Shown here piece by piece: positions 4,214 through 19,805 of a DNA stretch of 19,805 bases. The notes under the pieces were generated by a model. That model was not told the DNA's origin. It was given only the letters and a program-made list of their open reading frames with translations, and made no database searches. This DNA is from B21-G16 sp003644825 [NCBI: Candidatus Zhuqueibacterota bacterium]. GTDB lineage: Bacteria; SM23-31; B21-G16. How positions within the stretch are numbered: the stretch's first letter is position 1; the number at the start of each line of letters is the position of its first letter. Both the position numbers and the translations under genes were made by a program. The stretch lies in contig QNDJ01000003.1 in the NCBI GenBank assembly GCA_003644825.1, positions 1 through 19,805 on the forward strand. Direction: 5' to 3'.

Positions 4214-6616
4214 TTAAGGATTTGTAATGAACAGGAAAGCTTTTTCTGCTGCGGCATTTGCTTGAATAATACACTCCCTTAATGTTTTAGGATAGTGAGC
4301 CATTCCACATACAAATATACCTTCTCTATCAAGTTCTACGGGATTCAATAACGGGTCAATCTCTTTAAAAAACATCTCCTTATCCAGAGAAACATTTAAA
4401 ACATCAGCGATTTTTTTATTATCTTCACTGGGAATTGAAGCTACATTAAAAACAACAAGGTCAGCATCATAGATAGCTTTCACATTCTTTTTCTTATCGT
4501 TCTCAAATACTTTTACTCTAATATTTTCCCCTTCTTCCTCAACTTCAGGGTCAATCACACTTTCGACAAATTTTACACCCTTTTCAATAGCTTCAGAATA
4601 CAGTTCTTCATCAAAATCAAAAACTCTGATACCTTTATGTAAAACTATAATATCAGTATCTGGAGAAACCTGTTTAATTTTAAGAGCATTAACTATTGCC
4701 TCTGTGCAACATAATCTACTACAATAATTTCTGGCTCCAACACATTGAATCATCACCACCTTCTTTGCAGAAAATTTATTTTCTGCAATTAACTTTTCCA
4801 GTTCATATTGATTAATACCTTTATTCTTATTTTTCGACAGAGCATAATCCTCAGAGTATCTATATATTGAAGTACCAATTGCGACTATTATTCCACCGGT
4901 TTTGATTTCATTAAATTTTCCATCTGATTTTATCTTCACAGAGAAATTCCCTGGTTCGCCCTTCACTTCCTCAATATAAGAATTTAAAATTACTTTTATT
5001 TTCTCATTATTATTGACTTTTTCATTTAATTCTTCAAGTTTTTCTTCTGGTTTAATTTCATCACCTGTAATCAAATAATAAGAATCAATAAGCCTTCCAC
5101 CAAGTTTTTCCTTTTTTTCAACAAGAAATACATCCAAACCCAGCTCAGCTAATTTGAGAGAAGCAGTAATCCCGCTTACTCCACCACCGATTATCATACA
5201 GCTTTTCACTTTTTCAATTCTGGTCTTACTTTCAGGTTTCCCATTTTTCTTATCAAGGAGAGTTTTTAATTTACTTAAAATTCCCCCATTACCGCTATTA
5301 ATATCAAGCACATCCACAAATTCCGGTTTCAAATTAGCATCAGCAGAAATATCTTTAAACAAACCTGAATGACTTTCAGAATAACAGGAACAAATTATAA
5401 TTCTATCAAGATTTTCTTCTCTAATTGTATTAATAATATCATCAGTTGATTTCTTAACACATGCATAGTCATATTTCTTAACTGGATATGCTTCAGATAA
5501 TTCATCTATTACACCCAAAAATTCCATCATTTCGGTTTTGCTTAAAGTTTTTAAACCATATTTACACAAGAAAATACCTGTTCTTCCGTCATATTTTCCT
5601 TTTTCAGGTTTCACTGAAACTTCAATTTTTCCTTTTTTATTCTTCAACATAGAACAAATATGTGAAACAACATTACCTGCTTCCGCTATACAGGAAGGTA
5701 TATCCATAGGTCCATTAAAAGCACCTGCAGTAAAAACTCCCTCCTTTTCTGTATAACAGGGTAAAAAGGATTTATTGATAGAAAAGTTATATTTATTTAA
5801 TCCTGTTTTTAACATTCTACTAAGTTTTTTTGCATCCCTGGGAGCTTGAATACCAGTAGAAAGAACAACAAGGTCAAATTTTTCTTTCTTTTCTTCATTA
5901 TTCTGGAGATATTCAATTTTAATATTCCCGGAATCATCCTGTTGTAAATTTTTTACTTCAGCCTCTACAAAATCAATTGTATACTTTTCCTTTGCTTCAA
6001 TGAAAAGTAACTCAGACCCCTTACCAAAAGGCCTTATTCCTCTGTGAAAAATTTTTACCTCGGTATTTTTTAGCCTTTTTTTTATTTCTATTGAGTTTTT
6101 AAGGGCATTCACACAACAAATACTGGAACAATAATTAGCAGCAAGCATTTCCTCTCTGGAACCAACACACTGAATAAAAGCAATCTTTTCCGGTATTTCA
6201 CCATCAAAGGGTCTTAAAATAAGGCCACCATAGGGACCATTATCACTTAAAATCCTTTCGAATTCAATACCTGTAATCACATTATAGAATTTTGAATATC
6301 CGAGTTCCGGTATTCTTCGTGGATTAAATTCCTCAAATCCGGGTGCTAAAATAATGGCGTCAGCTTTTATGTCAATAGTTTCAGGTTTATCATCATAAAT
6401 AATAGCTTTAGGGTCACACTCTGCAAGGCACAGTCCACAGCCTATACATCTCCTGCAGCTCAAACATCTTTTTGCTTCAGCAATTGCTTCTTCTTCTGTA
6501 AAACCAAGTTCAACTTCTTTAAAATTCAATTTTCTTTCTTCGAGAGAAAGTTCTCTCATTTTATGTCTGGGAGTTGGAATATCATCAAATTCCGTAATAA
6601 ATTTATCCTTTTTCAT
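4214..6616 (-). CDS. Double HdrA-like protein: C-terminal half of a GltD-interrupted HdrA plus a second HdrA module
   Basis: An 800-residue soluble iron-sulfur flavoprotein. Residues 15-50 (PRHKMRELSLEERKLNF...) match the tail of GltD-like proteins. Cysteines at 51, 54, 57, 60, 63 and 67 form a ferredoxin-type cluster. From 85 to 330 comes the C-terminal half of an HdrA (ILAPGFEEF, IQCVGSR at 148-154, YCSSICC at 162-168) without its own N-terminal Rossmann motif. Residues 345-440 resemble the N-terminal domain of the HdrA-like proteins at 9134 and 13776 but have lost its CxCG (CKYG). A complete second FAD module begins with IIGGGVSG (475-482), with IQCVGAR...YCSRLCC near 623-637 and no C-terminal ferredoxin clusters. 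A good AGGAG site precedes the ATG. The upstream gene is in the same frame with only a TGA and six codons between. Confidence 0.85.
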   Translation of the reverse strand: MKKDKFITEFDDIPTPRHKMRELSLEERKLNFKEVELGFTEEEAIAEAKRCLSCRRCIGCGLCLAECDPKAIIYDDKPETIDIKADAIILAPGFEEFNPRRIPELGYSKFYNVITGIEFERILSDNGPYGGLILRPFDGEIPEKIAFIQCVGSREEMLAANYCSSICCVNALKNSIEIKKRLKNTEVKIFHRGIRPFGKGSELLFIEAKEKYTIDFVEAEVKNLQQDDSGNIKIEYLQNNEEKKEKFDLVVLSTGIQAPRDAKKLSRMLKTGLNKYNFSINKSFLPCYTEKEGVFTAGAFNGPMDIPSCIAEAGNVVSHICSMLKNKKGKIEVSVKPEKGKYDGRTGIFLCKYGLKTLSKTEMMEFLGVIDELSEAYPVKKYDYACVKKSTDDIINTIREENLDRIIICSCYSESHSGLFKDISADANLKPEFVDVLDINSGNGGILSKLKTLLDKKNGKPESKTRIEKVKSCMIIGGGVSGITASLKLAELGLDVFLVEKKEKLGGRLIDSYYLITGDEIKPEEKLEELNEKVNNNEKIKVILNSYIEEVKGEPGNFSVKIKSDGKFNEIKTGGIIVAIGTSIYRYSEDYALSKNKNKGINQYELEKLIAENKFSAKKVVMIQCVGARNYCSRLCCTEAIVNALKIKQVSPDTDIIVLHKGIRVFDFDEELYSEAIEKGVKFVESVIDPEVEEEGENIRVKVFENDKKKNVKAIYDADLVVFNVASIPSEDNKKIADVLNVSLDKEMFFKEIDPLLNPVELDREGIFVCGMAHYPKTLRECIIQANAAAEKAFLFITNP

Positions 6617-6634
6617 AAAGTTCTCCTGATTAAA

Positions 6635-6637
6635 TCA
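6635..6637 (-). other. In-frame TGA separating the two parts of the HdrA-GltD-HdrA protein
   Basis: The stop of the HdrA-GltD gene is TGA. The next 18 nt encode six sense codons in the same frame and then the ATG of the downstream gene, so readthrough would join both into one chain of about 1368 residues. No convincing SECIS hairpin follows, and an AGGAG ribosome site precedes the downstream ATG. A split into two separately started subunits is therefore favoured. Confidence 0.6.
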
Positions 6638-8320
6638 AGAAAGATATCTATCCATAGAATCAGCAGCAGTATGACCTGCAGCTATTGCCTCGATTACTGT
6701 TGCTGGACCGGTAACATCATCGCCACCAGCAAATATTCCGGGTCTGTTGGTTGCCCCATTTTTATCAATTACAAATGAATCCCATCTTGAGATTTCGAGC
6801 CCGTGCCCTTCATGAAGAAAAGATATATCAGGACGCTGACTAATCGCAGGAATAATACAATCTGCTTCAACTTCAAATTCAGAGCCCTCAACCGGTATTG
6901 GTCTTCTTCTACCGCTTGCATCGAGTTTACCCAGCCTCATTTTAGTACACAACATTCCTGTAACCTTCCCATTACTGCCAAGAATTTTAACAGGTGCAGC
7001 AAGATAATGAATCTTCACACCCTCTCTTTCTGCCTCTTCAACCTCCCAGGGGTTAGCAGGCATTTCTTTCCTTGACCTTCTATAAAGAATGTAAACTTCA
7101 TCACTACCAAGCCTTAGAGCTGTTCTTGCTGAATCAATAGCCGAATTACCACCACCAATAACTATAACCTTTTTACCTGGTTTACTCTTATCTCCGAGAT
7201 TTACCCTTCTTAAAAATACCACACAATCAAGAAAACCCTCATAATCATCTTCGCCTGGAACTCTGAGTTTTAATCCCTTATGTGCACCAATTCCAAGAAA
7301 TACAGCTTTATATCCTTTCTTAAAAAGGTCATCAATGGTAAAATCTTTATTTATTGGTGTATTTAGTTTAATATCTACACCCAGATGTTTAATGTAATCC
7401 ACCTCAACTTCTATAATATCTCTGGGCAGTCGATATTCTGGTATTCCCAGCCACAGCATACCACCCGGAACGGGTGCTGCTTCATAAATTGTGCAATCGT
7501 ATCCTTTAAGAGCAAGGTCATGAGCAACCGTTAAACCAGCAGGTCCAGCTCCAACTACTGCAACCTTTATGTGTTTACTTTTTTCAGGTGGTTTAGGAAG
7601 AAAACTTTTCCCTTCTTTTCTTAATTTTAGTTCGTAATCTGCTACAAATCTTTTTAAAGCATCAATTGCAACTGGCTGGTCTATTTTCCCCCTGTTGCAT
7701 GCATCTTCACAGGGATGATTACAAACTCTACCACAAATAGCAGGAAGGGGATTCCTCTCTCTTATAACCTTTAAGGCTTCAAGAAATTTCCCTTCGGCAA
7801 TCAGTCCTATATATTTTCTGATGTTTATATGAACAGGACAGGTTTCCACACAAATCGGGGTTTCTTTTTCAATATTATAAAGAAAAGGATATGCAGTAGA
7901 ATTATGAATATCTATTGCTGTCCTTAAAATAAGCCCTTCATTAAAAGTATCATAAGGTTTTATCGGGCAAACCCTCATACAATCACCACATGCAGTACAG
8001 TTTTCATTAACTCTTAGTGGGTTTTTCACAACTTTAACTTCAAAGTTTCCTGCTTCTCCTTTAACCCGTGAAATTTCTGCATTTGTAATAATTTTAATAT
8101 TAGGGTGTCTGTAAACAGCGTTAATATCAGGTGCAAATCTGCAAAATGCCGGTTTATCATCAGGATAAGCAGAACTTAATTGAGAAAAAGTACCACCAAT
8201 AGCAGGTGCCTTTTCAACAAGATACACCTTGAAACCTGAATTAGCAAGTTCAAGTGCAGACCTTATTCCTGTTATACCTCCACCTGCTATTATTACTGTT
8301 CCTGTATTACTATTTTCCAT
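6635..8320 (-). CDS. HdrA N-terminal half fused to a GltD-type NAD(P)H oxidoreductase
   Basis: A 561-residue chimera. Residues 9-100 are the start of an HdrA: FAD motif GGGITG (13-18), VEKAPAIGG (35-43) and RHPNI (71-75). The usual paired-cysteine segment is altered, keeping one Cys in KPAFCRFAP. A ferredoxin-type group CTACGDCMRVCP follows (108-119). From about 155 it becomes GltD/NfnB-like: CVETCP (157-162) with CGRVCNHPCEDAC (196-208) for iron-sulfur clusters, GAGPAGL (257-263) for FAD, and GGGNSAIDSA (389-398) with RRSRKEMPA (414-422) for the pyridine nucleotide. The arginines resemble NADP(H)-binding members (inference). It ends where the FAD domain of GltD ends; the expected tail is the start of the next gene. 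It probably gives the complex a second nucleotide site. No Shine-Dalgarno is evident. Confidence 0.87.
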   Translation of the reverse strand: MENSNTGTVIIAGGGITGIRSALELANSGFKVYLVEKAPAIGGTFSQLSSAYPDDKPAFCRFAPDINAVYRHPNIKIITNAEISRVKGEAGNFEVKVVKNPLRVNENCTACGDCMRVCPIKPYDTFNEGLILRTAIDIHNSTAYPFLYNIEKETPICVETCPVHINIRKYIGLIAEGKFLEALKVIRERNPLPAICGRVCNHPCEDACNRGKIDQPVAIDALKRFVADYELKLRKEGKSFLPKPPEKSKHIKVAVVGAGPAGLTVAHDLALKGYDCTIYEAAPVPGGMLWLGIPEYRLPRDIIEVEVDYIKHLGVDIKLNTPINKDFTIDDLFKKGYKAVFLGIGAHKGLKLRVPGEDDYEGFLDCVVFLRRVNLGDKSKPGKKVIVIGGGNSAIDSARTALRLGSDEVYILYRRSRKEMPANPWEVEEAEREGVKIHYLAAPVKILGSNGKVTGMLCTKMRLGKLDASGRRRPIPVEGSEFEVEADCIIPAISQRPDISFLHEGHGLEISRWDSFVIDKNGATNRPGIFAGGDDVTGPATVIEAIAAGHTAADSMDRYLS

Positions 8321-8352
8321 AACTACTAATAAATTAATTTTAAATTTAGTTA

Positions 8353-9126
8353 CTACTCATCTACAGTTTTCCATAATGGAGAACTTCCTGAGACATCTTC
8401 AAGCTCTACAAGTCCCATTTTCTTCAAATTAGCTATTTCTCTAAGGATACGATGAGAAGGAAGCCTCATTTTTTCAGATAATTCCTTTACAGAAGAAGGC
8501 TTATTTTTCAACCTCAAAAGTATCTCCTGCAGGTCAACTTCATCCATCACAACTTCCTTAAACATTCTCTCTATTTCATGAGCAGTGAATATTTCGTTAT
8601 AAAGGTTACCACTTTCCATAAATTCGGTTCTTTTACCAACAACCCATCTCAGTTTCTTACCTTCAAGGGCATTCCTGACTGCTTCCAATTTGAGTTTTAA
8701 CTCATTTTCACTTAAATTTTCTGCTTTACCAATCCTTCCCAGTTCAATAATTTTATCCATAAATTCAGAAACATATTTTACAAATTTTTGTGCTTCAGCA
8801 GAGGACATAAACTTAATCGTCAATCTCTCAGGAGATATACCTGCTCGTTTTAGAGCAAGCTGTGTCAAAAGTATTTTACCCTGAGCCTGATAATTTCCTG
8901 ATATATACCTGCATTCACCTAACAGACAGCCACCGCAGAATACTCCATCTGCTCCATTAACAAAAGCTTCCATTATCAATGAAGGGTCTATACGACCTGA
9001 ACACATCACTCTGATTATTCTAATATCAGGTTTATACTGAATCCTCGCAACCCCGGCGAGGTCTGCTGCTCCGTATGCTCACCAATTACAGCAAAAAGCA
9101 ATTATTTTTGGCCTGAATTTTTCCAT
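8353..9126 (-). CDS. mvhD: Selenocysteine-containing MvhD with winged-helix tail
   Basis: The gene starts at ATG 9126, after a GAGGAG site at the end of the preceding gene, and reads through an in-frame TGA at 9079-9081 (codon 16) to give 257 residues. The N terminus reads FCCNWU-AYGAADLAGV; MvhD/HdrD-associated proteins have CCNWC at this spot, so the TGA replaces the cluster-associated cysteine and is read as Sec. Other MvhD landmarks follow: MCSGR near 41 and GGCLLGECRY near 64. A [2Fe-2S] protein of this family passes electrons from a donor module to HdrA. Residues from about 200 (EILLRLKNKPSSVKELSEKM) look like a winged helix-turn-helix domain. Starting at the internal ATG 9009 would drop 39 conserved residues. 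Sec decoding is inferred, not proven. Confidence 0.85.
9043..9081 (-). promoter_or_regulatory. Putative bacterial SECIS element in mvhD
   Basis: Starting 18 nt after the UGA, CCUCGC (9061-9056) pairs perfectly with GCGAGG (9048-9043) around a 7-nt loop CGGGGUU with G residues near its apex. A looser outer pairing AUAC/GUAU (9076-9073 with 9037-9034) extends the element back towards the UGA. Position and loop fit bacterial SECIS elements recognised by SelB. Confidence 0.65.
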
Positions 9127-9133
9127 ATAATAT

Positions 9134-10813
9134 TTACTCCTCTAAAAAAGCCCTTATCTGAGCCTTTATCTGTTCATCACTGAAATGATTCATTCTTATC
9201 GCATGCCTGTAACAGGAAGCACCACAAATTCCGCATCCTCTGCATGCAACTTCAATAACTTTTGCTTTTACACCTTTTGGAGTTTCTACCATTTCTATCG
9301 CATTTGAAGGACATAAAGAAGCACACAACCCACAGCCTCTACATTCATCTTCATAGTAAACACTGGATACAATAGGCTCTACCATTACATACTTCTTTTC
9401 AAGATGAATGGAAGATCTGGCAGCAGCACCAAGAGCCTGTGTAGTACTCTCCTCAGTTGAAGCAGGCCAGTGAGCAGTTCCACAAACATATATACCATTT
9501 GTCGAAAAATCGAGAGGCCTTAATTTTATATGTGCTTCAAGATAGAACCCGTTTTCATCAAGAGTAACCTTTAACTTCTTAGAAAGATTCTCATTATCTT
9601 CAGGTGCTACAAGAGGCGTTGCAAGAATAATCAAATCTGCAGGTATTAAAAGCTCCTTACCCAGAATCTCATTGTAAACTCGAACTGTATTATCCTCTAC
9701 TTCTGGAAGTTTATTCAGGGAATAGTTTACAAACCTTATTCCATTTATTTTTGCTCTTCTTAATGTTTCCTCATTGGTTGTTCCATAAGCCTGTAAATCT
9801 CGATATAAAATAAAAATTTTCGATTCAGGATTCTTTTCTTTAATCAGTAATGCATTCTTTATTGCACTCATACAGCAAATTCTTGAGCAGTAAACTCTCT
9901 CATTATTCCTTGACCCGGCACACAGAATCATAACAAAATTCTTATATTGACTGATTCCATCATTTTTTAATTTATCTTCAAGTTGGAGCATATCTATTAC
10001 TTTTTTACCATCATAGCTAAATAAACCTTCAGGACTAAGAGTTTTTGCCCCGGTTGCAACAATTATAACACCAATATCAAAATTTAATTCATTGCCTTTA
10101 TCATTTTCTGCTTTTACTTTATAATTTCCGATATATCCTCCAACATTTTTAATCTCAGTAGAAGTAAAAACATTGATATTTTTATTTTTTTTCACTTCAT
10201 TAATCTTCTGATTTATATATTCTTCTGCATTGATGTTTTCAGGGTAAATTTTATATAGAGATTTTACCAACCCACCCAGCTTTTTTTCTTTTTCTATCAG
10301 TTTTACCTTAAAACCCCTGTTAGCGAGAGATAGAGCAGCAGATAACCCTGAAATACCACCGCCGATAACAAGAGCAGATGGTATTACACCAGCCGTTATT
10401 CTATCCTTTGGTTCGAGTTTGCTGGCTCTGGCAACCCCCATTCGGACAAGGTCTTTTGCTTTTTGTGTAGCTTCCTCTCTTTCATTTTTATGAACCCAGG
10501 AACATTGTTCTCTTATATTGACAAACTCAAACAGGTAAGGGTTTAAACCTGCTTCTTCACAGGCTGCCCTGAACGTGGGTTCATGGGTCAATGGTGTACA
10601 CGCTGCAACCACCACCCTGTTAAGATTGTTATTTTTAATTCCTTCTTTTATTTCATTGACTCCGGATTCAGAACAGGTAAATAAATTCTCCTTAACATAT
10701 ACTACTCCAGGAAGGGTCTTAGAATATTCTGCTACTTCTGGAACATCAAGAAATCCCCCGATATTGGTTCCACAATTACAAACAAAAACACCTATTCTTA
10801 ATTTTTCTTCCAC
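9134..10813 (-). CDS. HdrA-like flavoprotein with C-terminal double ferredoxin domain
   Basis: A 559-residue HdrA-family subunit. The N-terminal domain (1-135) has VFVCNCG (10-16) and VVVAACTPLTHEP near 68-80, as in bacterial HdrA-like subunits. The FAD module begins with VIGGGISGL near 149 and contains CAGSRNNERVYCSRICC near 300-316. Two [4Fe-4S] groups close the chain (CRGCGLCASLCP and CRGCGICGASC, about 490-535). It is a close paralogue of the protein at 13776. It lacks the inserted ferredoxin group and the CxxC/U segment of the HdrA at 10843, so it probably relays electrons rather than being the bifurcating flavin site (inference). The start is GTG, 29 nt after the selenocysteine HdrA gene; its stop overlaps the ribosome site of the MvhD gene. 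Confidence 0.87.
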   Translation of the reverse strand: MEEKLRIGVFVCNCGTNIGGFLDVPEVAEYSKTLPGVVYVKENLFTCSESGVNEIKEGIKNNNLNRVVVAACTPLTHEPTFRAACEEAGLNPYLFEFVNIREQCSWVHKNEREEATQKAKDLVRMGVARASKLEPKDRITAGVIPSALVIGGGISGLSAALSLANRGFKVKLIEKEKKLGGLVKSLYKIYPENINAEEYINQKINEVKKNKNINVFTSTEIKNVGGYIGNYKVKAENDKGNELNFDIGVIIVATGAKTLSPEGLFSYDGKKVIDMLQLEDKLKNDGISQYKNFVMILCAGSRNNERVYCSRICCMSAIKNALLIKEKNPESKIFILYRDLQAYGTTNEETLRRAKINGIRFVNYSLNKLPEVEDNTVRVYNEILGKELLIPADLIILATPLVAPEDNENLSKKLKVTLDENGFYLEAHIKLRPLDFSTNGIYVCGTAHWPASTEESTTQALGAAARSSIHLEKKYVMVEPIVSSVYYEDECRGCGLCASLCPSNAIEMVETPKGVKAKVIEVACRGCGICGASCYRHAIRMNHFSDEQIKAQIRAFLEE

Positions 10814-10842
10814 AATATCTTCCCGAACTTTAATTAACTATT

Positions 10843-12147
10843 CTATGCCCTTTTTTTCAATTTTAAACCTGCCAGTGTTTCCATAACTCTATCTGCAGCA
10901 GCGCTTGCAGCAGCAACAGATTCCGGAATATCCATTGGCCCCTGACTGAAACCACAGGCAAATATGCCCGGCACAGTTGTATCAGAAGGATACGGTAAAT
11001 TCTTTCTTACAAATCCATTCTCATCAAGTTCGTAGCCAAACATCTTACTCAATTTTTCAGCATCACTGCTTGGTTTTGCTGCAGTAGAAAGAACAACCAT
11101 ATCAACTTTTAAACTTTTAACCTTCCTTTCTATCGTATCCTCATACCATACCACCGGATTTTGTTCTTCATCTTCAGTAATTTCAGCAACCCTGCCTCTT
11201 ATATAATTAATTCCATATTCATCTTTTCCTCTTCTTTCATACTTTTGAAACCATTTACCAACATTTCGAAAATCAGTATGGAATATATAAGAATCTGATT
11301 CAGAGTCATGTTCTCTTGCAAGCATAGCATCTTTTATTGCATACATACAGCAAACACTGGAACAGTAATTGCAATTATTAAGGTCTCTGGAACCAACACA
11401 CTGAATATAAGCCACTTTTTTTGCCAGCTTTTTATCTGATGGCCTTAAAAGATGACCGCCAGTTGGACCTGTTGCATTAATCAGTCTTTCATATTCCAGA
11501 CCAGTAATTATATTTTTCAGTCTTTTATACCCATATTGTGTTAAATGAGAAGGGTCAAACATCTCCAGACCCGTAGCAATCACCACTGCCCCTACATCAA
11601 GTTCTACAATTTCATCTTTTTGTTCATAATCAATTGCACCTTTTTTACATATTTTTTCACACAATTTACACCTTCCTTTTAGAAAAAAAGTGCAAACATC
11701 TTTATCAATAGTTGCAACCGCCGGAATACCCTGTGCAAAGTAGATATATATTGCTTTTCTATCCCTCAAACCCATATCAAAAGAATCGGGTGCTTTCTTG
11801 GGACATTTCTCTATACACTCGCCACAGGCATTGCATATATTTTCATTAACATACCTTGCTTTTTTTCGAATTTTTACCTTAAAATTTCCTGCTTCTCCTT
11901 TTGCATCTTCAACCTCACTATAAGCCATAATCTTTATGTTAGGATGCCGACCGGCATCCAGCATTTTCGGAGCAAGAATTCATATAGAACAATCATTGGT
12001 AGGAAATGTTTTATCGAGCTGTGCCATAATTCCGCCTATACTGGGCTTTTTTTCTACAAGATATACTTTTTTACCCATTTCTGCAAGATCAAGGGAAGCC
12101 TGTATTCCTGCTATTCCACCTCCTATAACCAGTACATCTTCACTCAA
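10843..12147 (-). CDS. hdrA: Selenocysteine-containing HdrA
   Basis: Start chosen at TTG 12147, behind AGGAGG with 8-nt spacing and two bases after the preceding stop; the product is 434 residues when the in-frame TGA at 11980-11982 is read as Sec. The N terminus has [14 protein letters not shown] for FAD and [19 protein letters not shown], then TNDCSIUILAPKM: the UGA takes the place of the second Cys of the conserved HdrA CSxC segment. A ferredoxin group ([11 protein letters not shown]) and a second cysteine cluster ([19 protein letters not shown]) follow, then [30 protein letters not shown] and a closing [25 protein letters not shown]. HdrA carries the bifurcating FAD in heterodisulfide reductases. 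A start at 11964 would discard the FAD-binding half-domain. Confidence 0.88.
11942..11982 (-). promoter_or_regulatory. Putative bacterial SECIS element in hdrA
   Basis: Twenty nt after the UGA, GGAUGCC (11959-11953) and GGCAUCC (11948-11942) form a perfect 7-bp stem capped by the tetraloop GGUC. GGUC is also the apical sequence of the Escherichia coli fdhF SECIS. The perfect stem, loop identity and distance together strongly support selenocysteine insertion at the UGA. Confidence 0.8.
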
Positions 12148-12148
12148 A

Positions 12149-13285
12149 TTATTTTCCTCCTAACTTTTCTGCTATTAACGTTGTTATATCTTTAATCCTT
12201 ATATTATAGTTATTGTCTCTGTCAAAAAGGGCACAATTCAGATGTATTTCACACTTGGGGCATCCTGTTATCAGTGTCTCGGCTCCTGTATTTTCTGCTT
12301 CTTTAAGCCGCTCAACCTGAATTAATTTATTAACCGATGTACAGTTTATCCAGTTGCTTGAACCACAGCATAAAGAGTTTGCTCTGTTTCTTGGCATATC
12401 TTTAAAAACAATTCCAGGTATATTCTGTATTAAATTTCTTGGTTCTTCATATATTCCCATAAATCTGCCGAGTCTGCATGGGTCCTGATATGTAACTTTA
12501 TCCTCAGTTTCCAGAAACGAAAAATCTCCATCCCTGAGTTTTTCATTTACGAAGTTGGGCAGATATACACATTCAAAATCCAATTTTCCAAAATACAAAG
12601 GATAGACCTCTTTAAACATATTGTATCCTTCAGGACAGGTAAAAAAAACTACTTCAGCACCAGAATTATTTATTGTTTTCAAATTGTATTCTGCAAGGGT
12701 TTTAAATACATCAAATTCACCAATCCAGTAATGGTCATGTCCACAACATCTTTCATTCTCCGATATAACAGGTTCAATTCCAAAAAAATTAAAAATTTTT
12801 AAAGCTGATACTGCTATATCAATACTTTTAACATTAATATCTTTAAATATAATATTAAAAAAAGGTAAACACCCGACAAAATAATAAAACTTTCCCCTGT
12901 CAGTAACTTTAAAATTTTCAGGAATCCACTCTTTTGATTTTCTGAAGAATTCTGTGGTCTGGAGCTCCATCATTGCTTTTAAAGTTCCTGCGTGAGTACA
13001 GGTTCCATTTTCACCAAGAAGTTTTGCTTCAATTCTTGACCTCATAATAAACTGGTTAAAATCAACCGATGCAGGACACCTTGAACTACAGGCTTTACAG
13101 GTTAAACAGGACCATAACTTTTTGCTCCTTATTACATCATCTTCTTCCCCTAAAAGCAAATTTTCAACCATTAATCTGGGTGAAAAATTAGAGTCTATCC
13201 TTGATATCGGACAGCTTCCAGTGCATATCCCACACTCAATACAAAAATATGCTTTTGTATCATCAATTATTTTTTCTATATTCAC
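12149..13285 (-). CDS. HdrC-HdrB fusion, heterodisulfide-reductase-like subunit
   Basis: A 378-residue protein joining HdrC-like and HdrB-like parts, as in HdrD and GlpC-type proteins. Two ferredoxin groups lie at 15-25 ([11 protein letters not shown]) and 60-70 ([11 protein letters not shown]). The first CCG domain has C139 and CC180-181 but ends CPEG (217-220) instead of CPxC. The second is canonical: C270, CC306-307, CPKC 342-345. In HdrB such domains bind the noncubane clusters where the disulfide is cleaved, so this is the likely substrate-reducing subunit, possibly with one unusual cluster. No membrane anchor is encoded nearby. The GTG start overlaps the stop of the preceding mvhD by 4 nt (GTGA), suggesting coupled translation. 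The physiological disulfide is unknown. Confidence 0.87.
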
Positions 13286-13698
13286 GAAGAGACCTCCGTT
13301 TGAACCTTGCCCATTTTTCTTATTTTCATTACAAATTTATTTACTATCGAAGCAAAGGTCGAACCATCGACTTCTGTGAACAACTTTATTTCCAATCTTT
13401 CAGGTTCTATTCCTGAAAACTTCAATAATTGTTTTGTTTCTTCAACTACTTTAATGCATTTTTCATTTCCGACAATATAATGACAATCACCTTCCTCGCA
13501 GCCTGCTATCATAACACCATCAGCACCATTCTTAAAAGCTGTAAGAATATTTGAAGGAGTTATCTGACCTGTGCATATAACTCTTATTATTCTAACAAAT
13601 GGTGAATATTGCTGCATTTCAACACCAGCATTATCTGCTCCAATATAGGGTGTCCATTCACATGCAAAAATAATTATCTCCGGGTCTTTTTTATTCAT
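13282..13698 (-). CDS. mvhD: MvhD-like [2Fe-2S] subunit lacking one conserved cysteine
   Basis: A 138-residue MvhD homologue of minimal length. It reads FACEWTPYIGADNAGV near 11-26, where the family usually has CCNWC; the second Cys position is Thr (codon ACA), so neither Cys nor Sec is present there. The remaining landmarks are kept: ICTGQ near 41 and AGCEEGDCHY near 65-74. It probably joins an HdrA-type subunit to the electron-donating module, perhaps with altered cluster ligation. It differs from the second MvhD of the operon, which has Sec at that site and a winged-helix tail. The ATG has only a weak CAGGAT-like site. It overlaps the HdrCB gene by 4 nt. Confidence 0.87.
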   Translation of the reverse strand: MNKKDPEIIIFACEWTPYIGADNAGVEMQQYSPFVRIIRVICTGQITPSNILTAFKNGADGVMIAGCEEGDCHYIVGNEKCIKVVEETKQLLKFSGIEPERLEIKLFTEVDGSTFASIVNKFVMKIRKMGKVQTEVSS

Positions 13699-13775
13699 CT
13701 GTTATAATCCTGCTGTGTAATATTTTAAGTTTATTTCTGAATTAAAACAAAATTTTATATTTTCAAAATCTTTAC

Positions 13776-15443
13776 TCACACAAAAACACCTAACATACTA
13801 TCAATTTGTTTTTTTGAAATAACCTGTGGTTGCAAAGCACCGCTCGGGCAAACCACAGTACACACTCCACAACCCTTACACATAATAGAATTGAATTTTA
13901 CCTGTTTTATACCACTACCAGTATCGAACAATTCAACAGCATTAAACTCACAAACTTCAACACATCTGCCACACCCTCTGCAGGTCTCAGAATCATAACT
14001 GACAACAACAGGTTCAATTTCTATCTTTTTATTCTTTAATACAACATATCCTCTGGAAGCAGCACTATATCCCTGAGCAATACTCTCAAAAGTATTTGCA
14101 GGCCAGTGCACATTACCTGCAACATAAATTCCCCGGGGAACATATTTACCCGGTTTAAGGCGAACCTGTTTCTCAACAAGAAATCCATTCTCATCTAAAG
14201 GTATTCCGAGTATATTATGGAGCTCTTCAGATTGCTCATCCGGAACAACAGGAACAGATAAAACAAGTAAATTATAAGGTAAATCCCCTGACCTTTTTGT
14301 TTCAGTTCCAGTAAACAGAATTACATCTTCAAGTATTTTCACAGGTTCAGCGTAATTATACTGGATAAAATTTATACCGGAAAGCTCTGCTCTCTTTCTG
14401 TCCTTTTCATTGAAAGCAGGAATATCTCTGTAAAGAATAGTAATATCTGCCTGAGGTGACATTTCTTTTAAAATAATTGCATTTTTTATTGCAGTAATAC
14501 AACACACCCTTGCACAGTAAGGCCGTTCATTATTTCTGACACCCTCACATTGAAACATTACAACTTTTCCAGGGTTTTTAAGTCTTTTGTCATTTTCCAG
14601 CAGCATTCTTTCGAGGTCCATCTGGGAAATTACTTTATCGCTTTTTCCGTAGTCTGGATTTTCTGGTTGAAGAGCTTTTGCACCGGCTGCAACAATTATT
14701 ATCCCGGCATTCTTTTTAATTTCTCTGTTATTCTGGGTAATAACAACATCGTAATTCCCAACACAACCCGAAACACTGGTTACTCTGGCATTTGTTAATA
14801 TCTCAATACCCGGTATACTTTCTATCTTCTTTATCCTGTTCCGAATAAAATCCCTGGCATTAATCATAGTTGGGTAAATTTTATATAAATTCTTCAGCAT
14901 TCCACCAAGTTCTTTTTCCTTCTCAACGAGTAAAACTTTAACATTTTTTTCTGCCAGAGATATAGCAGATGTAATTCCCGTAATGCCACCACCGATGATT
15001 AAAGCTGATGGAATAACTTCTTCTTCAATAACATCAAGGGGTTTACTTTCCTTTACTTTAGCTACCCCCATACCCACAAGTTTCTTTGCTTTTAACAGAG
15101 CTTTCTCCTCGCTGTCAATATGAACCCAGGCACATTGTTCCCGAATATTTACCATTTCAAATAAATAGCTGTTTAACCCTGCTTCCTCAGCAAGGTTTCT
15201 AAAAATGTTCTCAAATATTCTCGGCGAACATCCCGCAACAATAAAATGAGTTAAGTTCTTCTCCTTTATTACTTTACTTATAAATCTTTTACCATCTTTT
15301 GAACAGGAATAAGGAAGTCTCTTTACAAAAGTTACATTATCCAGGGATTCTGCAAATTTTTCAACCTCTTCAAGGTCAATATAATCAGATATTTTGTTTC
15401 CACAATTACAGATAAAAACTCCTATATTAATACTCTCGCTCAC
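13776..15443 (-). CDS. HdrA-like flavoprotein with C-terminal double ferredoxin domain
   Basis: A 555-residue paralogue of the protein at 9134, with the same layout. The N-terminal domain has VFICNCG (9-15) and FIVAGCSPRIFEN (67-79). The FAD module starts at LIIGGGITGI (148-157) with VEKEKELGGMLK, and QCEGVRNNERPYCARVCC lies near 296-313. Two closing [4Fe-4S] groups are CRGCGRCVEVCEFNA and CKGCGVCTVVCPSGA (about 490-535). It is the first Hdr-type gene after the NADH module, so it may be the electron entry point from NuoEFG-like subunits to the Hdr part (inference). The start is GTG behind a strong GAGAGGAG site that overlaps the end of the preceding gene; a 77-nt gap separates it from mvhD. 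Confidence 0.87.
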   Translation of the reverse strand: MSESINIGVFICNCGNKISDYIDLEEVEKFAESLDNVTFVKRLPYSCSKDGKRFISKVIKEKNLTHFIVAGCSPRIFENIFRNLAEEAGLNSYLFEMVNIREQCAWVHIDSEEKALLKAKKLVGMGVAKVKESKPLDVIEEEVIPSALIIGGGITGITSAISLAEKNVKVLLVEKEKELGGMLKNLYKIYPTMINARDFIRNRIKKIESIPGIEILTNARVTSVSGCVGNYDVVITQNNREIKKNAGIIIVAAGAKALQPENPDYGKSDKVISQMDLERMLLENDKRLKNPGKVVMFQCEGVRNNERPYCARVCCITAIKNAIILKEMSPQADITILYRDIPAFNEKDRKRAELSGINFIQYNYAEPVKILEDVILFTGTETKRSGDLPYNLLVLSVPVVPDEQSEELHNILGIPLDENGFLVEKQVRLKPGKYVPRGIYVAGNVHWPANTFESIAQGYSAASRGYVVLKNKKIEIEPVVVSYDSETCRGCGRCVEVCEFNAVELFDTGSGIKQVKFNSIMCKGCGVCTVVCPSGALQPQVISKKQIDSMLGVFV

Positions 15444-15455
15444 TTATTACTCCTC

Positions 15456-16100
15456 TCAAAAACCTGGTGAAAAATGAAAACTTCCACAAACATTACATCT
15501 TCTCTCTGAGAATTTATCAGACCATTGATGCATTACACTTATACCACTCAATTCATCAAGTTTGATTGCACCTGTAGGACATACAGTCGTACAGGTACCA
15601 CATTTAATACAATTCACAGTCGCTGTTAAAAAAGGGGGTTTTACCTCCATTTTATAACCTCTATCCACAAAATGAATTGCCCTGGCACCTACAATCTCGT
15701 CGCATGCCCTTACACATAACCCACAAAGAATACAATTGTTATCTTCTTCTTCAAATCTACTTTTCTTAACTCCATACTCTTCAGCCAGTTCTTTAATAAC
15801 TTTACTTCCGGGGCAATCCGCCAGTAGTAACTCCAGCACCATTTTTCTCGTTTTAATAACTTCTTCTGAATCAGTTCTAACCACAATTCCTTCAGATACA
15901 GGAAAGGTGCAGGAAGGAACTAACTTACTTCCATTTTCAGAAACAAGCTCTACAAGACATATCCGACAGGCACCATACGGTTTAAGAGCCTCGTTATAAC
16001 ATAAGGTGGGAATCTGAATGCCGTTTTCCCTGGCAGCTTCAAGAATTGTAAGGTCTTCACTCACAGAAATTTTCCTGCCATCAATGGTTATATTTACCAT
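15456..16100 (-). CDS. HoxU/NuoG-like iron-sulfur subunit without catalytic domain
   Basis: A 214-residue ferredoxin-like protein matching the N-terminal part of NuoG and the small HoxU subunit. A [2Fe-2S] domain has C34, C45, C48 and C64. A stretch LADCPGSKVIKELAEEYG (94-110) matches HoxU-like proteins, and two [4Fe-4S] groups follow (CILCGLCVRAC 123-133, CIKCGTCTTVC 164-174). It ends with RRCNVCGSFHF, a lone CxxC near a His, of unknown role. No H-cluster domain follows, so this is not the catalytic subunit of an [FeFe]-hydrogenase; it carries electrons from NuoF to the Hdr-type subunits. It starts with ATG behind GGAG. Confidence 0.88.
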   Translation of the reverse strand: MVNITIDGRKISVSEDLTILEAARENGIQIPTLCYNEALKPYGACRICLVELVSENGSKLVPSCTFPVSEGIVVRTDSEEVIKTRKMVLELLLADCPGSKVIKELAEEYGVKKSRFEEEDNNCILCGLCVRACDEIVGARAIHFVDRGYKMEVKPPFLTATVNCIKCGTCTTVCPTGAIKLDELSGISVMHQWSDKFSERRCNVCGSFHFSPGF

Positions 16101-16159
16101 TATTTACTCCACTATATTGACATAAAAAATTTTCCAGAATCTCATAATATCAATTTAAA

Positions 16160-17968
16160 TTATTCCATATATATAGCATCACCAGCAATAGCATCAAATC
16201 TACACACCTCGTAACAGGCACCACATTTAATACATTTAGATGCATCCAGATTATGGGGCTGGGCTTTTGGGCCGGTAATTGCACCCGTTGGACAAACCTG
16301 AACACACCTTCTACAACCAGTGCATTTTTCGGGGATAATTCTGTAAATTATCAAATCTTTACATACTAAAGCAGGGCATCTTTTCTTTTTTATATGCGCT
16401 TCATATTCATCCCTGAAATATCTTATTGTCGATAGAACCGGATTTGGTGCTGTTTGACCGAGCCCGCAAAGAGAAGCTTTTTTTATAGTTTCAGCAAGTT
16501 CTTCAAGAAGTTCAATATCTCCTTCTTTTCCTTTTCCCTGGGTAATTCTTGTAAGTATCTCTCTCATTCTTCTAATTCCACTTCTGCAGGGCACACATTT
16601 ACCACAGGATTCATCCTCAAGAAAAGAAACAAAATATTTTGCCACATCAACCATACAGGTATCCTCATCCATCACAATAAGACCACCTGAACCCATAATT
16701 GCGCCGGCTTTTGTCAGTTGCTCATAATCTACCGGCAGGTCAATAAGTTCCTCAGGGATACATCCACCCGATGGACCCCCTGTTTGAACTGCTTTAAATT
16801 TTTTACCGTTGGGTATTCCTCCACCAATGTTATAAATTATTTCTCTTAAGGTAATTCCCATAGGAACTTCAACAAGTCCTGTGTTATTGACTTTTCCAAC
16901 AAGAGAAAAAACCTTTGTTCCTTTACTTGTTTCTGTTCCAATCCGGGAAAACCAGTCGCCCCCCCTTGCTATAATAACAGGAATATTTGCCCAGGTCTCA
17001 ACATTATTAATATTTGTTGGTTTTCCCCATAATCCTTTTTGAGCCGGGTATGGGGGTCTTGGTGTGGGTCTACCCACTTTTCCCTCTATTGACTGCATAA
17101 GAGCAGTTTCTTCACCGCAAACAAAAGCACCACCACCCCGAACTATCTTCAGGTCAAAATCAAACCCTGAACCAAGAATATCTTCTCCAAGAAGACCATA
17201 ATCTTTAGCCTTTTCCACGGCAATACTAATTCTTTTCAGAGCAAGTGGATACTCATCCCTTACATAAACAAATCCCTTATGTGCTCCTATTGCTTTTGCA
17301 CCTATTACCATACCTTCAATTACAGAGTGAGGGTCAGCTTCCAGGATACTTCTATCCATATAAGCACCCGGGTCTCCTTCATCAGCATTGCAGATAATAT
17401 ATTTCACATCTCCTTTCGATGCTCTGCAGAGTTCCCATTTTCTACCGGTGGGAAATCCTGCACCACCTCGCCCTCTTAATCCTGAAATTTTTACTTCATT
17501 TATAATTTCCTCAGGGGTCATTTCAAAGAGAGCTTTACCCATCGATTGATACCCATCATTTGCAATATACTCTTCAATCTCTTCAGGGTCAATTCTTCCC
17601 CTATTTCTTAATGCAATAAGTATCTGGTGCTTAAAAAATTCAATATCCATCATCTTGGGGATAACCTCTTCCCCTTTCGATGGAGTATACATCAACTTTT
17701 TAACGGGTCTGCCTTTTAGAAAATGTTCTTCAACAAGATATGGTATATCTGATTCCTTTAACTGCTGATAAAATATCCCATCAGGCTGCACAACAAGTAT
17801 AGGACCCCTTTCACAAAATCCGTTACACCCCGTCGGAACAATTAATACCTCATTTTCAAGGTTATGTTTTTTTATTTCAATTTCCAGAGATTTTTTTATA
17901 TTAAAGGCATTATTGGATACACAAGCAGTTCCTGTACATAAAAGTAGATGGGTTCTGTATCGTTTCAA
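16160..17968 (-). CDS. nuoF: NuoF/HydB-type NADH dehydrogenase subunit
   Basis: A 602-residue NADH-oxidising subunit of the three-part form found in HydB, HndC and related bifurcating enzymes. Residues 1-90 are a thioredoxin-like [2Fe-2S] domain (C11, C16, C48, C52). The NuoF core binds NADH and FMN (GLRGRGGAGFPTGRKW 163-178, CNADEGDPGAY 193-203, RGGGAFVCGEETAL 277-290), followed by an SLBB-like stretch and the [4Fe-4S] site CGKCVPC (455-461) with Cys 501. Two ferredoxin groups end the chain (549-559, 579-589). It is the likely entry or exit point for NAD(H), together with the NuoE domain encoded just upstream. The TTG start at 17968 lies behind GAGGTAAG, 26 nt after the REC-NuoE gene. Confidence 0.93.
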   Translation of the reverse strand: MKRYRTHLLLCTGTACVSNNAFNIKKSLEIEIKKHNLENEVLIVPTGCNGFCERGPILVVQPDGIFYQQLKESDIPYLVEEHFLKGRPVKKLMYTPSKGEEVIPKMMDIEFFKHQILIALRNRGRIDPEEIEEYIANDGYQSMGKALFEMTPEEIINEVKISGLRGRGGAGFPTGRKWELCRASKGDVKYIICNADEGDPGAYMDRSILEADPHSVIEGMVIGAKAIGAHKGFVYVRDEYPLALKRISIAVEKAKDYGLLGEDILGSGFDFDLKIVRGGGAFVCGEETALMQSIEGKVGRPTPRPPYPAQKGLWGKPTNINNVETWANIPVIIARGGDWFSRIGTETSKGTKVFSLVGKVNNTGLVEVPMGITLREIIYNIGGGIPNGKKFKAVQTGGPSGGCIPEELIDLPVDYEQLTKAGAIMGSGGLIVMDEDTCMVDVAKYFVSFLEDESCGKCVPCRSGIRRMREILTRITQGKGKEGDIELLEELAETIKKASLCGLGQTAPNPVLSTIRYFRDEYEAHIKKKRCPALVCKDLIIYRIIPEKCTGCRRCVQVCPTGAITGPKAQPHNLDASKCIKCGACYEVCRFDAIAGDAIYME

Positions 17969-17994
17969 TGTGCTTACCTCTAAAAAATTAAGAA

Positions 17995-18876
17995 TTATTC
18001 ATACTTACTTAATATCAAAGGAATTTTTGACTGGTTCAACTTTCCATGAAAGTTTTCATCAATAACTATCACTGGAGCAAGACCACAGCAACCAACACAT
18101 CTTACAGTTTCCATAGAAAACCTGCCATCAGGTGTAGTTTCACCTGTTTTAATACCCAGTTCTCGTTCCAGTCTATCTTTAATATTAGGACCGCCCTTAA
18201 CATGACAGGCAGTTCCAAGACAGATAGAAATATGATGCCTGCCTCTGGGTTTCAAGCTGAATGCCCTGTAAAAAGTAGCCAGACCAAATACCCTCGATAA
18301 AGGAATATTCATTCTATCTGCAATCAATCGTAATAATTCTTCAGGTAAGTATTTCAATTCCTTCTGAACATCCTGCAATATACTTATCAAGGCAGAATCA
18401 TCAAAATTGTATTTTTTAAGAATGGTTTCCAGTTTTTCAACATTTAGAATATCACCAATAGCAGAAACAGGGGGGCGTTCGGATACTTTTTCCACTGGAG
18501 AAGGCTGGACTTTTTCCTCTATAGCCTTTTTAACAACTTCCAGTAATTCATCAGGAGTAAACGGCTTCATCACATAATTAAAAGCCCCTTTTTTCATAGC
18601 TTCAACGGCTGTTTCTACTGTAGCATGGCCTGTAATCATAATTGCAACAGTTTCAGGAGCTTCTTCTTTTATCATTCCAAGGAGGTCAAGCCCGTTTATA
18701 CCCGGCATTACCATATCAACAAGAACAAGATTGTAGAAAGATTTTTTAATTTTTTCTAGCCCCTCTTTTCCATCAGCAGCAGTATCCACCTGGAACCCTT
18801 CAGGTTCAAGAATAAGCTTACATCCTTCCCGAAACCCCTCCTCATCGTCCACAACAAGAATTCTAAAATTATCCAA
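17995..18876 (-). CDS. nuoE: Response-regulator receiver domain fused to NuoE
   Basis: A 293-residue fusion. Residues 1-120 are a complete receiver domain of NtrC-like type: acidic pair D10/D11, phosphoacceptor D54 in LVDMVMPG, T82 in ITGHATVETAVEAMKKGA and K104 in MKPF. After a proline-rich linker (125-140), residues 145-293 are a NuoE/HoxE subunit with the [2Fe-2S] ligands C219, C224, C260 and C264 (CLGTAC and CVGCC). NuoE works with NuoF in NADH oxidation. All phosphorylation residues are intact, so the NADH module may be controlled by phosphorylation, perhaps by the kinase-like ATPase encoded upstream; this is inference. The TTG start follows AAGGAG, and 14 nt separate it from the preceding gene. 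Confidence 0.92.
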   Translation of the reverse strand: MDNFRILVVDDEEGFREGCKLILEPEGFQVDTAADGKEGLEKIKKSFYNLVLVDMVMPGINGLDLLGMIKEEAPETVAIMITGHATVETAVEAMKKGAFNYVMKPFTPDELLEVVKKAIEEKVQPSPVEKVSERPPVSAIGDILNVEKLETILKKYNFDDSALISILQDVQKELKYLPEELLRLIADRMNIPLSRVFGLATFYRAFSLKPRGRHHISICLGTACHVKGGPNIKDRLERELGIKTGETTPDGRFSMETVRCVGCCGLAPVIVIDENFHGKLNQSKIPLILSKYE

Positions 18877-18890
18877 TTCCTGCTCCTTCT

Positions 18891-19274
18891 TTAATAAACC
18901 GTTTCACTGCCAAAGGCAAGGGCATAATCCACTACTATATTCCCTCCCAGGATATGTTCCACCATTATCTTTTTAACTTTATCCTCGGTTAAATCAATAT
19001 ACTTTACAGGTGGTTTTCCTGGTATTTCGACTGTCATCATTGGCTCGTGACTGCACAAACCGGCACATCCAGATGTTGTTACAATAACATCCGTTATATT
19101 TCTTTCTTCAAGTTCCTTAAGTAAAGAATTCATAATATTCCTTGCTCCAGAAGCAATTCCACAGGTTCCCATGTGAACTATTATTTTTGCTCTTCCCTTT
19201 CCATCTCTTGTCTTAATTGATTCTTTGGCTTTGTCCCTTAATGCTTTCAATTCATCCAGTGTTAACTTTGGCAT
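18891..19274 (-). CDS. Small thioredoxin-like [2Fe-2S] protein (HndB-like)
   Basis: A 127-residue protein of the thioredoxin-like ferredoxin family found in NADH-linked [FeFe]-hydrogenase operons (HndB and related). Cysteine motifs MGTCGIASGA (35-44) and SGCAGLCSHEPM (68-79) supply the [2Fe-2S] ligands. The N terminus (LTLDELKALRDKAKESI) is a helical stretch usual for this group. It is probably an accessory electron carrier of the NuoEF module. Its ATG follows CTGGAG, and a 225-nt AT-rich gap lies upstream. Confidence 0.88.
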   Translation of the reverse strand: MPKLTLDELKALRDKAKESIKTRDGKGRAKIIVHMGTCGIASGARNIMNSLLKELEERNITDVIVTTSGCAGLCSHEPMMTVEIPGKPPVKYIDLTEDKVKKIMVEHILGGNIVVDYALAFGSETVY

Positions 19275-19499
19275 AAATTTACTCCAGATAACAAATTTTA
19301 TATTATATTTATTAATTTAAATTATTTCGGCAGGAACAAAAATAGAGGGTGAATATACATAATATAAATATAATCTATTTAAAATTAATACTTTATATCA
19401 TATTTAATTTAAAATTTTCACCCACTCATAATACCTTTTAATTACTAATCGATCCTGCACAAATCGAATTCAGTAATATAAAAAACAACTTTTAATTTT
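19275..19499 (-). promoter_or_regulatory. AT-rich leader with nested inverted repeats
   Basis: This 225-nt gap between the ATPase gene and the [2Fe-2S] gene is the largest non-coding gap inside the redox operon. It is very AT-rich and holds two nested short inverted repeats: GCAGGA (19330-19335) with TCCTGC (19453-19458), and inside them GGGTGAA (19347-19353) with TTCACCC (19417-19423). It could hold an internal promoter, operator sites or an attenuator. No clear -35/-10 or -24/-12 pair was found. Confidence 0.35.
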
Positions 19500-19805
19500 T
19501 CAATAAAAATTTACTTTTAATTTTTTTAATTCATTTATGAGACTCTTCCTTATAAAACTTAAAACTTCTACATTATTTATGGGTAAATCACCTAATTCCC
19601 TTTTTATCTGTTCCGTATTGAAAAAAAAATTATTGTCATCTTTCCTATGAGAATAAATGAAATTAACTTCAGGATTTCCAGCAATCAGGGTAATAAGGGT
19701 TTGAGGAATATCTCCCAATGGTTTTCTATCTATGTTATCATACTCAAAAGTTGCCACAACGGTTGTTCCTTTTCCCTCTTCTGATGAAATTGAGATACTT
19801 CCCCC
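19500..19805 (-). CDS. Histidine-kinase-like ATPase, 5' part missing
   Basis: The frame is open to the window edge, so only the last 101 residues are present. They begin GGSISISSEEGKGTTV, the closing G-box/GTT element of HATPase_c domains, then AxFEYDNIDRKPLGDIPQTL and a tail of about 60 residues containing NFIYSHRKDDNNFFFNTEQIKRE. ATP-binding proteins with such a tail accompany NuoE/HydB-type genes in anaerobes, where their role is not settled. The GTG at 19757 lies inside the domain and is not the true start. The receiver domain on the nearby NuoE is a possible partner (inference). Confidence 0.75.
   Translation of the reverse strand, partial: GGSISISSEEGKGTTVVATFEYDNIDRKPLGDIPQTLITLIAGNPEVNFIYSHRKDDNNFFFNTEQIKRELGDLPINNVEVLSFIRKSLINELKKLKVNFY

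Follow-up and report, generated by a model that had tools for sequence, protein, structure and literature searches.

Contig QNDJ01000003.1 of a Candidatus Zhuqueibacterota bacterium carries a run of twelve genes in which a NuoEFG-like module stands beside a large set of Hdr-type proteins. Do these genes encode one electron-coupling complex, or two that share an operon? The window, by which we mean the whole stretch of 19,805 nucleotides analysed, is the entire contig C3 of a draft genome (2.48 Mb, 493 contigs, 83.6% complete). The run lies on the minus strand at 4214-19274 with intergenic gaps of -4 to 77 bases. Its order is HndB-like 2Fe-2S protein, response-regulator::NuoE, NuoF, short NuoG, HdrA relay 1, MvhD1 and HdrCB, followed by HdrA, HdrA relay 2, MvhD2, HdrA-half::GltD (the chimera) and HdrA-half::HdrA relay (the double protein). 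A sequence-only reading had seen here a multi-branched bifurcating machine; Pfam and NF040770 scans found every gene that it listed, close-set on the minus strand. We put at an even chance that the twelve genes encode one soluble, Hdr-type electron-bifurcating or -confurcating complex linked to NAD(P)H and ferredoxin. Complex formation, direction and substrates we infer from modules and cofactor residues that can be read in the genes themselves. Below, C denotes a contig of the window's own genome, G a genome and L a fetched locus; G015 is Candidatus Zixiibacteriota bacterium isolate CSMAG_2270.

Conservation of the gene run

Gene order was compared across genomes, as the sequence-only reading had advised. 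G015 (the genome of L053) has all twelve genes in unchanged order, with 42-80% identity (Table 1), which supports the presence of one complex. The G015 block is divided between two contigs that share exactly 141 bases at their ends, within the chimera gene: the first runs from HndB to the chimera start, and the end of the second holds the remaining chimera and the double protein. The chimera was compared in two pieces. G028 also has the double protein in full, together with the end of the chimera. At E<=1e-100, the 800-aa double protein has matches in at least 5 of 132 genomes of the G015 phylum; among these, G015 and G028 match it from residue 1 at 46%, and three others from residues 17-49 at 33-35%. 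Five other genomes of the window's own phylum gave no full-length match to this protein and three partial ones.

The block in G015 was found with NuoF as query. HdrCB was dropped for this purpose because its 37 loci proved to be other cluster types. The NuoF search covered 24 genomes, namely those of 18 of the 37 HdrCB loci and six of the own phylum; 21 of the 24 gave matches, the best foreign one being that of G015. Carbon monoxide dehydrogenase (TIGR01702) was found in none of the three genomes G000, G015 and G028.

Table 1. Positions of the features in the window, in gene order, with identity to the G015 counterpart.
Feature	Positions	Strand	Identity to G015	Matches and remarks
C-terminal fragment, 101 residues, cut by contig end	19500..19805	-		probably histidine-kinase-like ATPase
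HndB-like thioredoxin-fold [2Fe-2S] protein, 127 aa	18891..19274	-	51%	PF01257 24.6 bits, just under 24.8 cut-off
Response-regulator receiver::NuoE (BfuC-like), 293 aa	17995..18876	-	49%	PF00072 at 6-115, PF01257 at 150-292
NuoF/HydB-type subunit (BfuB-like), FMN and probable NAD(H) site, 602 aa	16160..17968	-	75%	PF01512, PF10589, C-terminal Fer4
Short NuoG (BfuA-like), 214 aa: Fer2, two 4Fe-4S motifs, no catalytic domain	15456..16100	-	47%	PF13510, Fer4
HdrA relay 1, 555 aa: N-domain, FAD domain, C-terminal 2x4Fe-4S	13776..15443	-	42%	NF040770 434 bits
MvhD1, 138 aa	13282..13698	-	54%	PF02662 145 bits
HdrCB fusion, 378 aa	12149..13285	-	56%	PF02754 twice, Fer4
HdrA core with selenocysteine, 434 aa, no N-domain, complete inserted ferredoxin	10843..12147	-	71%	NF040770 539 bits; 8rvu/5odc match
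In-frame UGA of HdrA, read as selenocysteine	11980..11982	-		position 197 in 5odc numbering
SECIS-like hairpin of HdrA, 7-bp stem, GGUC loop	11942..11959	-
HdrA relay 2, 559 aa, built as relay 1	9134..10813	-	64%	NF040770 532 bits
MvhD2 with selenocysteine (CCNWU) and C-terminal extension, 257 aa	8353..9126	-	59%	PF02662 161 bits; 5odc_D match
In-frame UGA of MvhD2, read as selenocysteine	9079..9081	-
Possible SECIS hairpin of MvhD2, 6-bp stem	9043..9061	-		single fold
First half of split HdrA (~residues 1-150), then GltD/NfnB-like NAD(P)H-FAD domain, 561 aa	6635..8320	-	62/80%	two pieces in G015
GltD-model tail, second split-HdrA half (~1-330), further HdrA-like relay, 800 aa	4214..6616	-	45%

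Redox modules and selenocysteine

The NuoEFG module resembles the Bfu core. NuoF has 7t2r_B as its top PDB match (872 bits) and, in an ungapped alignment, carries C438, T476, H525, C531 and C536 at 7t2r numbers. These are the B2 cluster ligands listed in PMC9304861, which reports the His in almost every BfuB and finds it missing from non-bifurcating homologues. Homologues of BfuC (NuoE) and BfuA (NuoG) stand in the same cluster. The NAD(H) site that the sequence-only reading had placed at NuoF is thus probable, since the Bfu marker ligands are kept. Inspection by eye revealed no His-Cys3 motif in NuoG of the window or of G015, and Pfam found no hydrogenase domain in the window NuoG. Type 2 BfuA, Bam included, lacks A3 and A5 (PMC9304861); the missing His-Cys3 motif would be A3 if our own mapping is right. 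The fusion of NuoE to a response-regulator receiver, overlooked in the sequence-only reading together with both selenocysteines, also occurs in G015. By eye, the phospho-accepting Asp seems to have been lost from the G015 receiver (L108 10097-10981; LTELEIPG, compared with LVDMVMPG in the window), so the domain may be structural rather than a switch.

HdrA had been listed as two open reading frames at 11980-12147 and 10843-11964. The gene stands and the split does not: both are parts of a single gene with an in-frame TGA. MvhD2 was likewise corrected, to a gene with an in-frame TGA inside it. The HdrA codon aligns with Cys197 of 5odc (query residue 3 corresponds to chain residue 144, so 56 corresponds to 197). 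We compared 40 distinct HdrA sites matching the motif, drawn from the window and the loci from L028 on; non-matching sites, such as L110 and L115 (both Cys), were excluded. TGA was present in 36 of the 40 and a Cys codon in the other four, and the UGA is kept in the G015 HdrA. A hairpin resembling a selenocysteine insertion sequence (SECIS) starts 20 bases after the UGA. It was tested on 35 of the 36 UGA sites, one being dropped as it holds an N. In these, 99.6% of cells were paired, compared with at most 57.1% when the hairpin was slid along the sequence. One pair varies (UA in 20, CG in 10, UG in 5) and four are invariant. No shuffle among 500 equalled the observed values for cells paired, cells changed on both sides or covariation score, but 456 of them reached the count of pairs changed on both sides and all 500 that of further pair types. 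The covariation of the hairpin therefore rests on one pair, in related sequences.

The UGA of MvhD2, at residue 16, replaces the second Cys of a CxWC-type motif (CCNWC) and is conserved in G015. The possible hairpin behind it was seen as a single fold; it has identical stem letters in G015 but another lowest-energy fold there. SelA (TIGR00474, 564 bits) and SelB (TIGR00475, 349 bits) are encoded side by side on contig C279 of the own genome. That HdrA is a frameshifted or dead gene was rejected: its stop codon, a UGA, stands where a Cys is conserved, and a covarying hairpin accompanies it. An in-frame UGA at a Cys site, the SECIS-like hairpin and SelA/SelB together support selenocysteine in HdrA; in MvhD2 the UGA conserved in G015 marks a predicted one.

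Five HdrA-type FAD units are present, as the sequence-only reading had counted: relay 1, HdrA, relay 2, the chimera together with the first half of the double protein, and the second half of the latter. Pairwise alignments show that the selenocysteine-containing HdrA (Sec-HdrA) retains the equivalents of E356 and K409 and the FAD-proximal 4Fe-4S cysteines; both equivalents are present in four of the five units. E356 and K409 have been proposed as marks of bifurcating HdrA (PMC12054007). Relays 1 and 2 lack the inserted ferredoxin and the 197-site but have an N-domain and a C-terminal ferredoxin. HdrA pairs with such complementary N-domain and 197-site have been proposed to assemble as heterodimers, on the ground that the N-domain cluster of one HdrA is completed by Cys197 of the other (PMC9012536). 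The Sec-HdrA core and the relays complement each other in the way this proposal describes, which we count in favour of a single complex.

The chimera and the double protein had been taken for separate oddities. We dropped this view for one split HdrA with an inserted GltD, a layout already in print (Moorella HdrA, PMC9430772; archaeal type III HdrA, PMC12054007 and PMC9012536). The 561-aa protein comprises HdrA residues 20-154 with GltD behind them, and the 800-aa protein resumes HdrA from about residue 160. GltD is thus located between the two clusters of the inserted ferredoxin, as in type III HdrA, here in a split gene pair. Single-gene versions argue for one split HdrA: the own genome has a one-gene HdrA::GltD of 906 aa (L028), and G087 a 1485-aa version with the relay (L135). 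Related proteins in L041, L045 and L050 (Chloroflexota) match little or none of the second half of HdrA. The NAD(P) motif of the window GltD, GGGNSA, has the form GXGXXA, read as NADP-preferring in PMC12054007. This is a weak test, and it is consistent with the probable NADP(H) site named in the sequence-only reading. The own-genome locus L028 (1905-9499) encodes an aldehyde ferredoxin oxidoreductase (AOR), a ferredoxin, the one-gene HdrA::GltD, an HdrA relay and MvhD, and is possibly an NAD(P)H-linked AOR-Hdr enzyme.

HdrB typically has two five-Cys non-cubane cluster sites. In a 39-sequence alignment, the window HdrCB has Cys at 17 of 18 tabulated Fe-S positions, residue 220 being Gly. The second site is complete; the first lacks its fifth Cys in the window and in G015. 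An own-genome HdrCB paralogue in L029 retains this Cys. L029 (85-6762) encodes Sec-HdrA, MvhD and HdrCB in a second own-genome Hdr cluster, and similar clusters occur among the HdrCB loci of Zixibacteria, Neomarinimicrobiota, Chloroflexota and Calditrichota. L030 (1-6037), labelled by reading, holds a double HdrA (973 aa), two MvhD and two FrhB/HdrL-like Fe-S proteins. The C-terminal extension of MvhD2 weakly resembles a winged helix, under Pfam cut-offs.

One complex or two

If the genes encode one complex, the Bfu core would merge the electrons of NADH and ferredoxin to mid-potential and pass them via NuoG to an HdrA heterodimer of Sec-HdrA and relay 1 or 2. The selenocysteine of Sec-HdrA would complete the N-domain 4Fe-4S cluster of the partner relay. 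The heterodimer FAD would then split the electrons, sending high-potential ones to a disulfide-like substrate at HdrCB and low-potential ones to ferredoxin, or to NADP via the GltD-bearing HdrA. The whole machine could run backwards too. By analogy it would be the electron-transfer half of BamDEFGHI, without the ring-reducing subunits, joined to a Moorella-type HdrA. The multi-branched bifurcation between NADH, NADP(H), ferredoxin and a disulfide that the sequence-only reading envisaged is plausible in the light of the NuoF ligands, four of the five HdrA units and the GXGXXA motif; its treatment of the chimera and the double protein as separate modules did not hold.

Several points weigh against a single bifurcating complex of this kind. 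The last HdrA unit lacks the K409 equivalent (V in the window, E in G015), and PMC9304861 regards the GltD-type FAD of its Nfn-Bfu enzyme as an NADP(H) site that does not bifurcate. Only the window and two G015 copies, 3 of the 39 aligned sequences, have Gly at HdrCB position 220, and since the first-site Cys is lost HdrCB may not reduce a heterodisulfide. MvhD1 has lost its Cys/Sec site (CEWT, with Thr, in the window and CSWH in G015); taken with the Gly at 220, this suggests that the HdrCB substrate may not be a classical heterodisulfide. A tRNA-Sec was found only below the Rfam cut-off in the own genome, which is 83.6% complete. Relay 1 of G015 was matched by position and scores best against relay 2 of the window (526 bits), its identity to relay 1 being the 42% of Table 1. 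The presence of two MvhD proteins and two relays could point to a pair of complexes. Among the 37 HdrCB loci, several of them short, not one has NuoE, or NuoF beyond its C-terminal ferredoxin stretch; the Hdr part therefore exists without NuoEFG.

Several of these points lead to the main rival, which we regard as a serious though clearly less probable explanation: two complexes encoded in one operon, NuoEFG-relay 1-MvhD1 on one side and HdrCB, Sec-HdrA, relay 2, Sec-MvhD2 and HdrA::GltD, of the Moorella type, on the other. It would account for the paired MvhD and relays and fits Hdr sets without NuoEFG at own-genome and other loci, as well as L117 and L109, which have NuoEF with a single HdrA set and a single MvhD. 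It is opposed by the single gene run, in which gaps do not exceed 77 bases and the MvhD1 and HdrCB genes overlap by 4 bases, and by the conservation of the block in a second phylum.

It is improbable, in our view, that the block is instead one half of a tungsten (AOR/BamB-type) reductase, the half for electron transfer, with the catalytic subunits encoded at another place in the genome. The subunit types match BamDEFGHI, and AOR-family genes are present: two in the own genome, one in G015 and one, in two pieces, in G028. However, one own-genome AOR (C32) has its own HdrA::GltD, relay and MvhD, and the other (C223) adjoins a ferredoxin. Neither the window nor the G015 and G028 stretches fetched from around the block gave an AOR match, and HdrCB already provides an acceptor site.

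DRTGG-like, RsbW-like and [FeFe]-hydrogenase-domain genes accompany Hyd operons. An [FeFe]-hydrogenase-type operon, in which NuoEFG serves a hydrogenase and the Hdr genes are mere neighbours, is very improbable: genes for a DRTGG-like protein (under the Pfam cut-off), an RsbW-like ATPase and an [FeFe]-hydrogenase domain do follow directly downstream in G015, with similar genes in G028 and on own-genome contig C8, but the own-genome [FeFe] matches are a histidine-kinase fusion and a 432-aa protein (182 and 142 bits, TIGR04105 cut-off 450), that of G015 reaches 105 bits (TIGR04105), and the window NuoG has no hydrogenase domain. In agreement with the sequence-only reading, the Pfam scan of the window proteins found no hydrogenase catalytic domain, FlxABCD or formate dehydrogenase domain.

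For the single complex, relatives of NuoF offer a further line of evidence. An HdrA-type match lies within a few kb of NuoF in 7 of 20 neighbourhoods (L108, L109, L110, L113, L115, L117 and L119) and in 2 of 10 of a second batch (L157 and L160). NuoG is fused to the C-half of HdrA in L109 (6165-7919), L110 (8735-12001), L113 (9582-11372), L115 (5262-6857), L157 (4031-5812) and L160 (47-1840), and the HdrA part of all six fusions starts at residue 104-105, where the first cluster of the inserted ferredoxin lies. The N-half of HdrA stands before NuoE, or is fused to it, in L110, L113, L115, L157 and L160; none was recognised in L109. In these five loci the NuoEFG module sits inside a split HdrA. 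At least 12 of 132 genomes of the G015 phylum, and at least 3 of 301 sampled from the G006 phylum, have matches that span both NuoG and HdrA; these are lower bounds because only some candidates per genome were scored. We found no description of the NuoG::HdrA arrangement in the literature searched. The fusion of NuoG onto HdrA at the same domain elsewhere suggests direct electron transfer between the modules.

A bolder reading has three parts, which we consider unlikely to hold jointly. The inserted ferredoxin of HdrA could be a general socket for spliced pyridine-nucleotide modules, taking either GltD between its clusters (window, Moorella, ANME-1) or a whole NuoEFG, with the HdrA N-half before NuoE and the C-half behind NuoG. 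The machine could have three possible bifurcation sites in series, each chemically different (Bfu FMN, HdrA FAD, NfnB-like FAD), and its low-potential branch could contain a selenolate ligand; the non-bifurcating view of GltD-type FAD also counts against the third site. Its output could be electrons below ferredoxin potential, or a balance of the NADH, NADPH, ferredoxin and thiol pools in a single particle. A single complex made by all twelve genes would rank with the most elaborate electron-coupling enzymes known, and a Bam-type chain (a Bfu module feeding HdrA) would then be used without an aromatic-ring reductase. The conserved set, the selenocysteines and the lost cysteines make specific, testable predictions, and repeated splicing of NAD(P)H modules into one HdrA domain suggests a simple rule for evolving new electron inputs.

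Downstream of the block, and counted outside it, are an MNT-like nucleotidyltransferase and HEPN gene pair (2750-3419; likely toxin-antitoxin), a DUF362 protein and a further Fe-S protein that carries Fer4_5 motifs. The fragment at the other contig end, which falls within the interval given in the sequence-only reading (4214-19805), matched no Pfam family. We label it by an SSEEGKGT motif, which we take to be that of a histidine-kinase-like ATPase, and by the ATPase-like N-terminal piece with which contig C8 ends. Contig C8 (L171, 5338-14817 and the contig end) encodes an NfnAB-type fusion, an [FeFe]-hydrogenase-domain histidine kinase and response regulators; it also holds DRTGG, RsbW-like and PHP genes and ends in the apparent N-terminal half of an ATPase gene. 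It may lie just upstream of the window, because the two contig ends read as halves of one ATPase gene; no exact end overlap between them was found.

Comparison with known systems

The literature searched, whose scope did not extend to a 2021 review of HdrA modules, yielded no description of the full twelve-gene set. To this extent the claim that it is not a described enzyme stands; NuoEFG together with HdrA and MvhD is already in print. Related published systems include Hdr-Flox and Stn (PMC10327494), HdrABC-MvhD-MetVF (PMC5736913) and archaeal double-HdrA fusions (PMC11237513).

The nearest described enzyme, compared by description and not by sequence, is BamBCDEFGHI, the class II benzoyl-CoA reductase of Geobacter and Desulfosarcina; double bifurcation has been proposed for its BamDEFGHI part (PMC9304861, PMC13328260). 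Both systems have a NuoEFG-like part (BamIHG, homologous to BfuABC) and HdrA/HdrB/HdrC-like proteins (BamE, BamD). Selenocysteine occurs in HdrA, MvhD and BamE of Desulfococcus multivorans (PMC5109826), and the window and Bam would share a NuoG with A1-, A2- and A4-like motifs only, if the A3 mapping holds. In contrast to Bam, the window block lacks BamB/BamC, as Pfam found no AOR-type domain in the window proteins and the two AOR matches of the genome are on C223 and C32; it adds HdrA::GltD, two relays, two MvhD and the response-regulator fusion.

MetVF-HdrABC-MvhD of Moorella thermoacetica likewise has an HdrA (1487 aa) interrupted by GltD with a second HdrA unit after it, and Hdr and MvhD partners; in the window HdrA::GltD is split over two genes, MetVF is absent and NuoEFG is present. 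Type III HdrA of ANME-1 and Bathyarchaeota also carries GltD (NfnB-like) within the inserted ferredoxin, whereas the window version is bacterial, is split, has GXGXXA and not GXGXXG, and is accompanied by NuoEFG and predicted selenocysteines. In Desulfotignum phosphitoxidans, nuoEFG-mvhD and nuoGEF-mvhD-hdrA units, noted in 2013 (PMC4046663), place NuoEFG beside HdrA and MvhD as in the window; the available description lists no HdrCB, GltD chimera or double HdrA. Finally, the Bfu family (HydABC, NiFe-HydABCSL, Stn) shares the BfuB marker ligands and the NuoE/NuoF/NuoG core with the window, where the third partner would be an Hdr assembly rather than H2 or NADPH alone.

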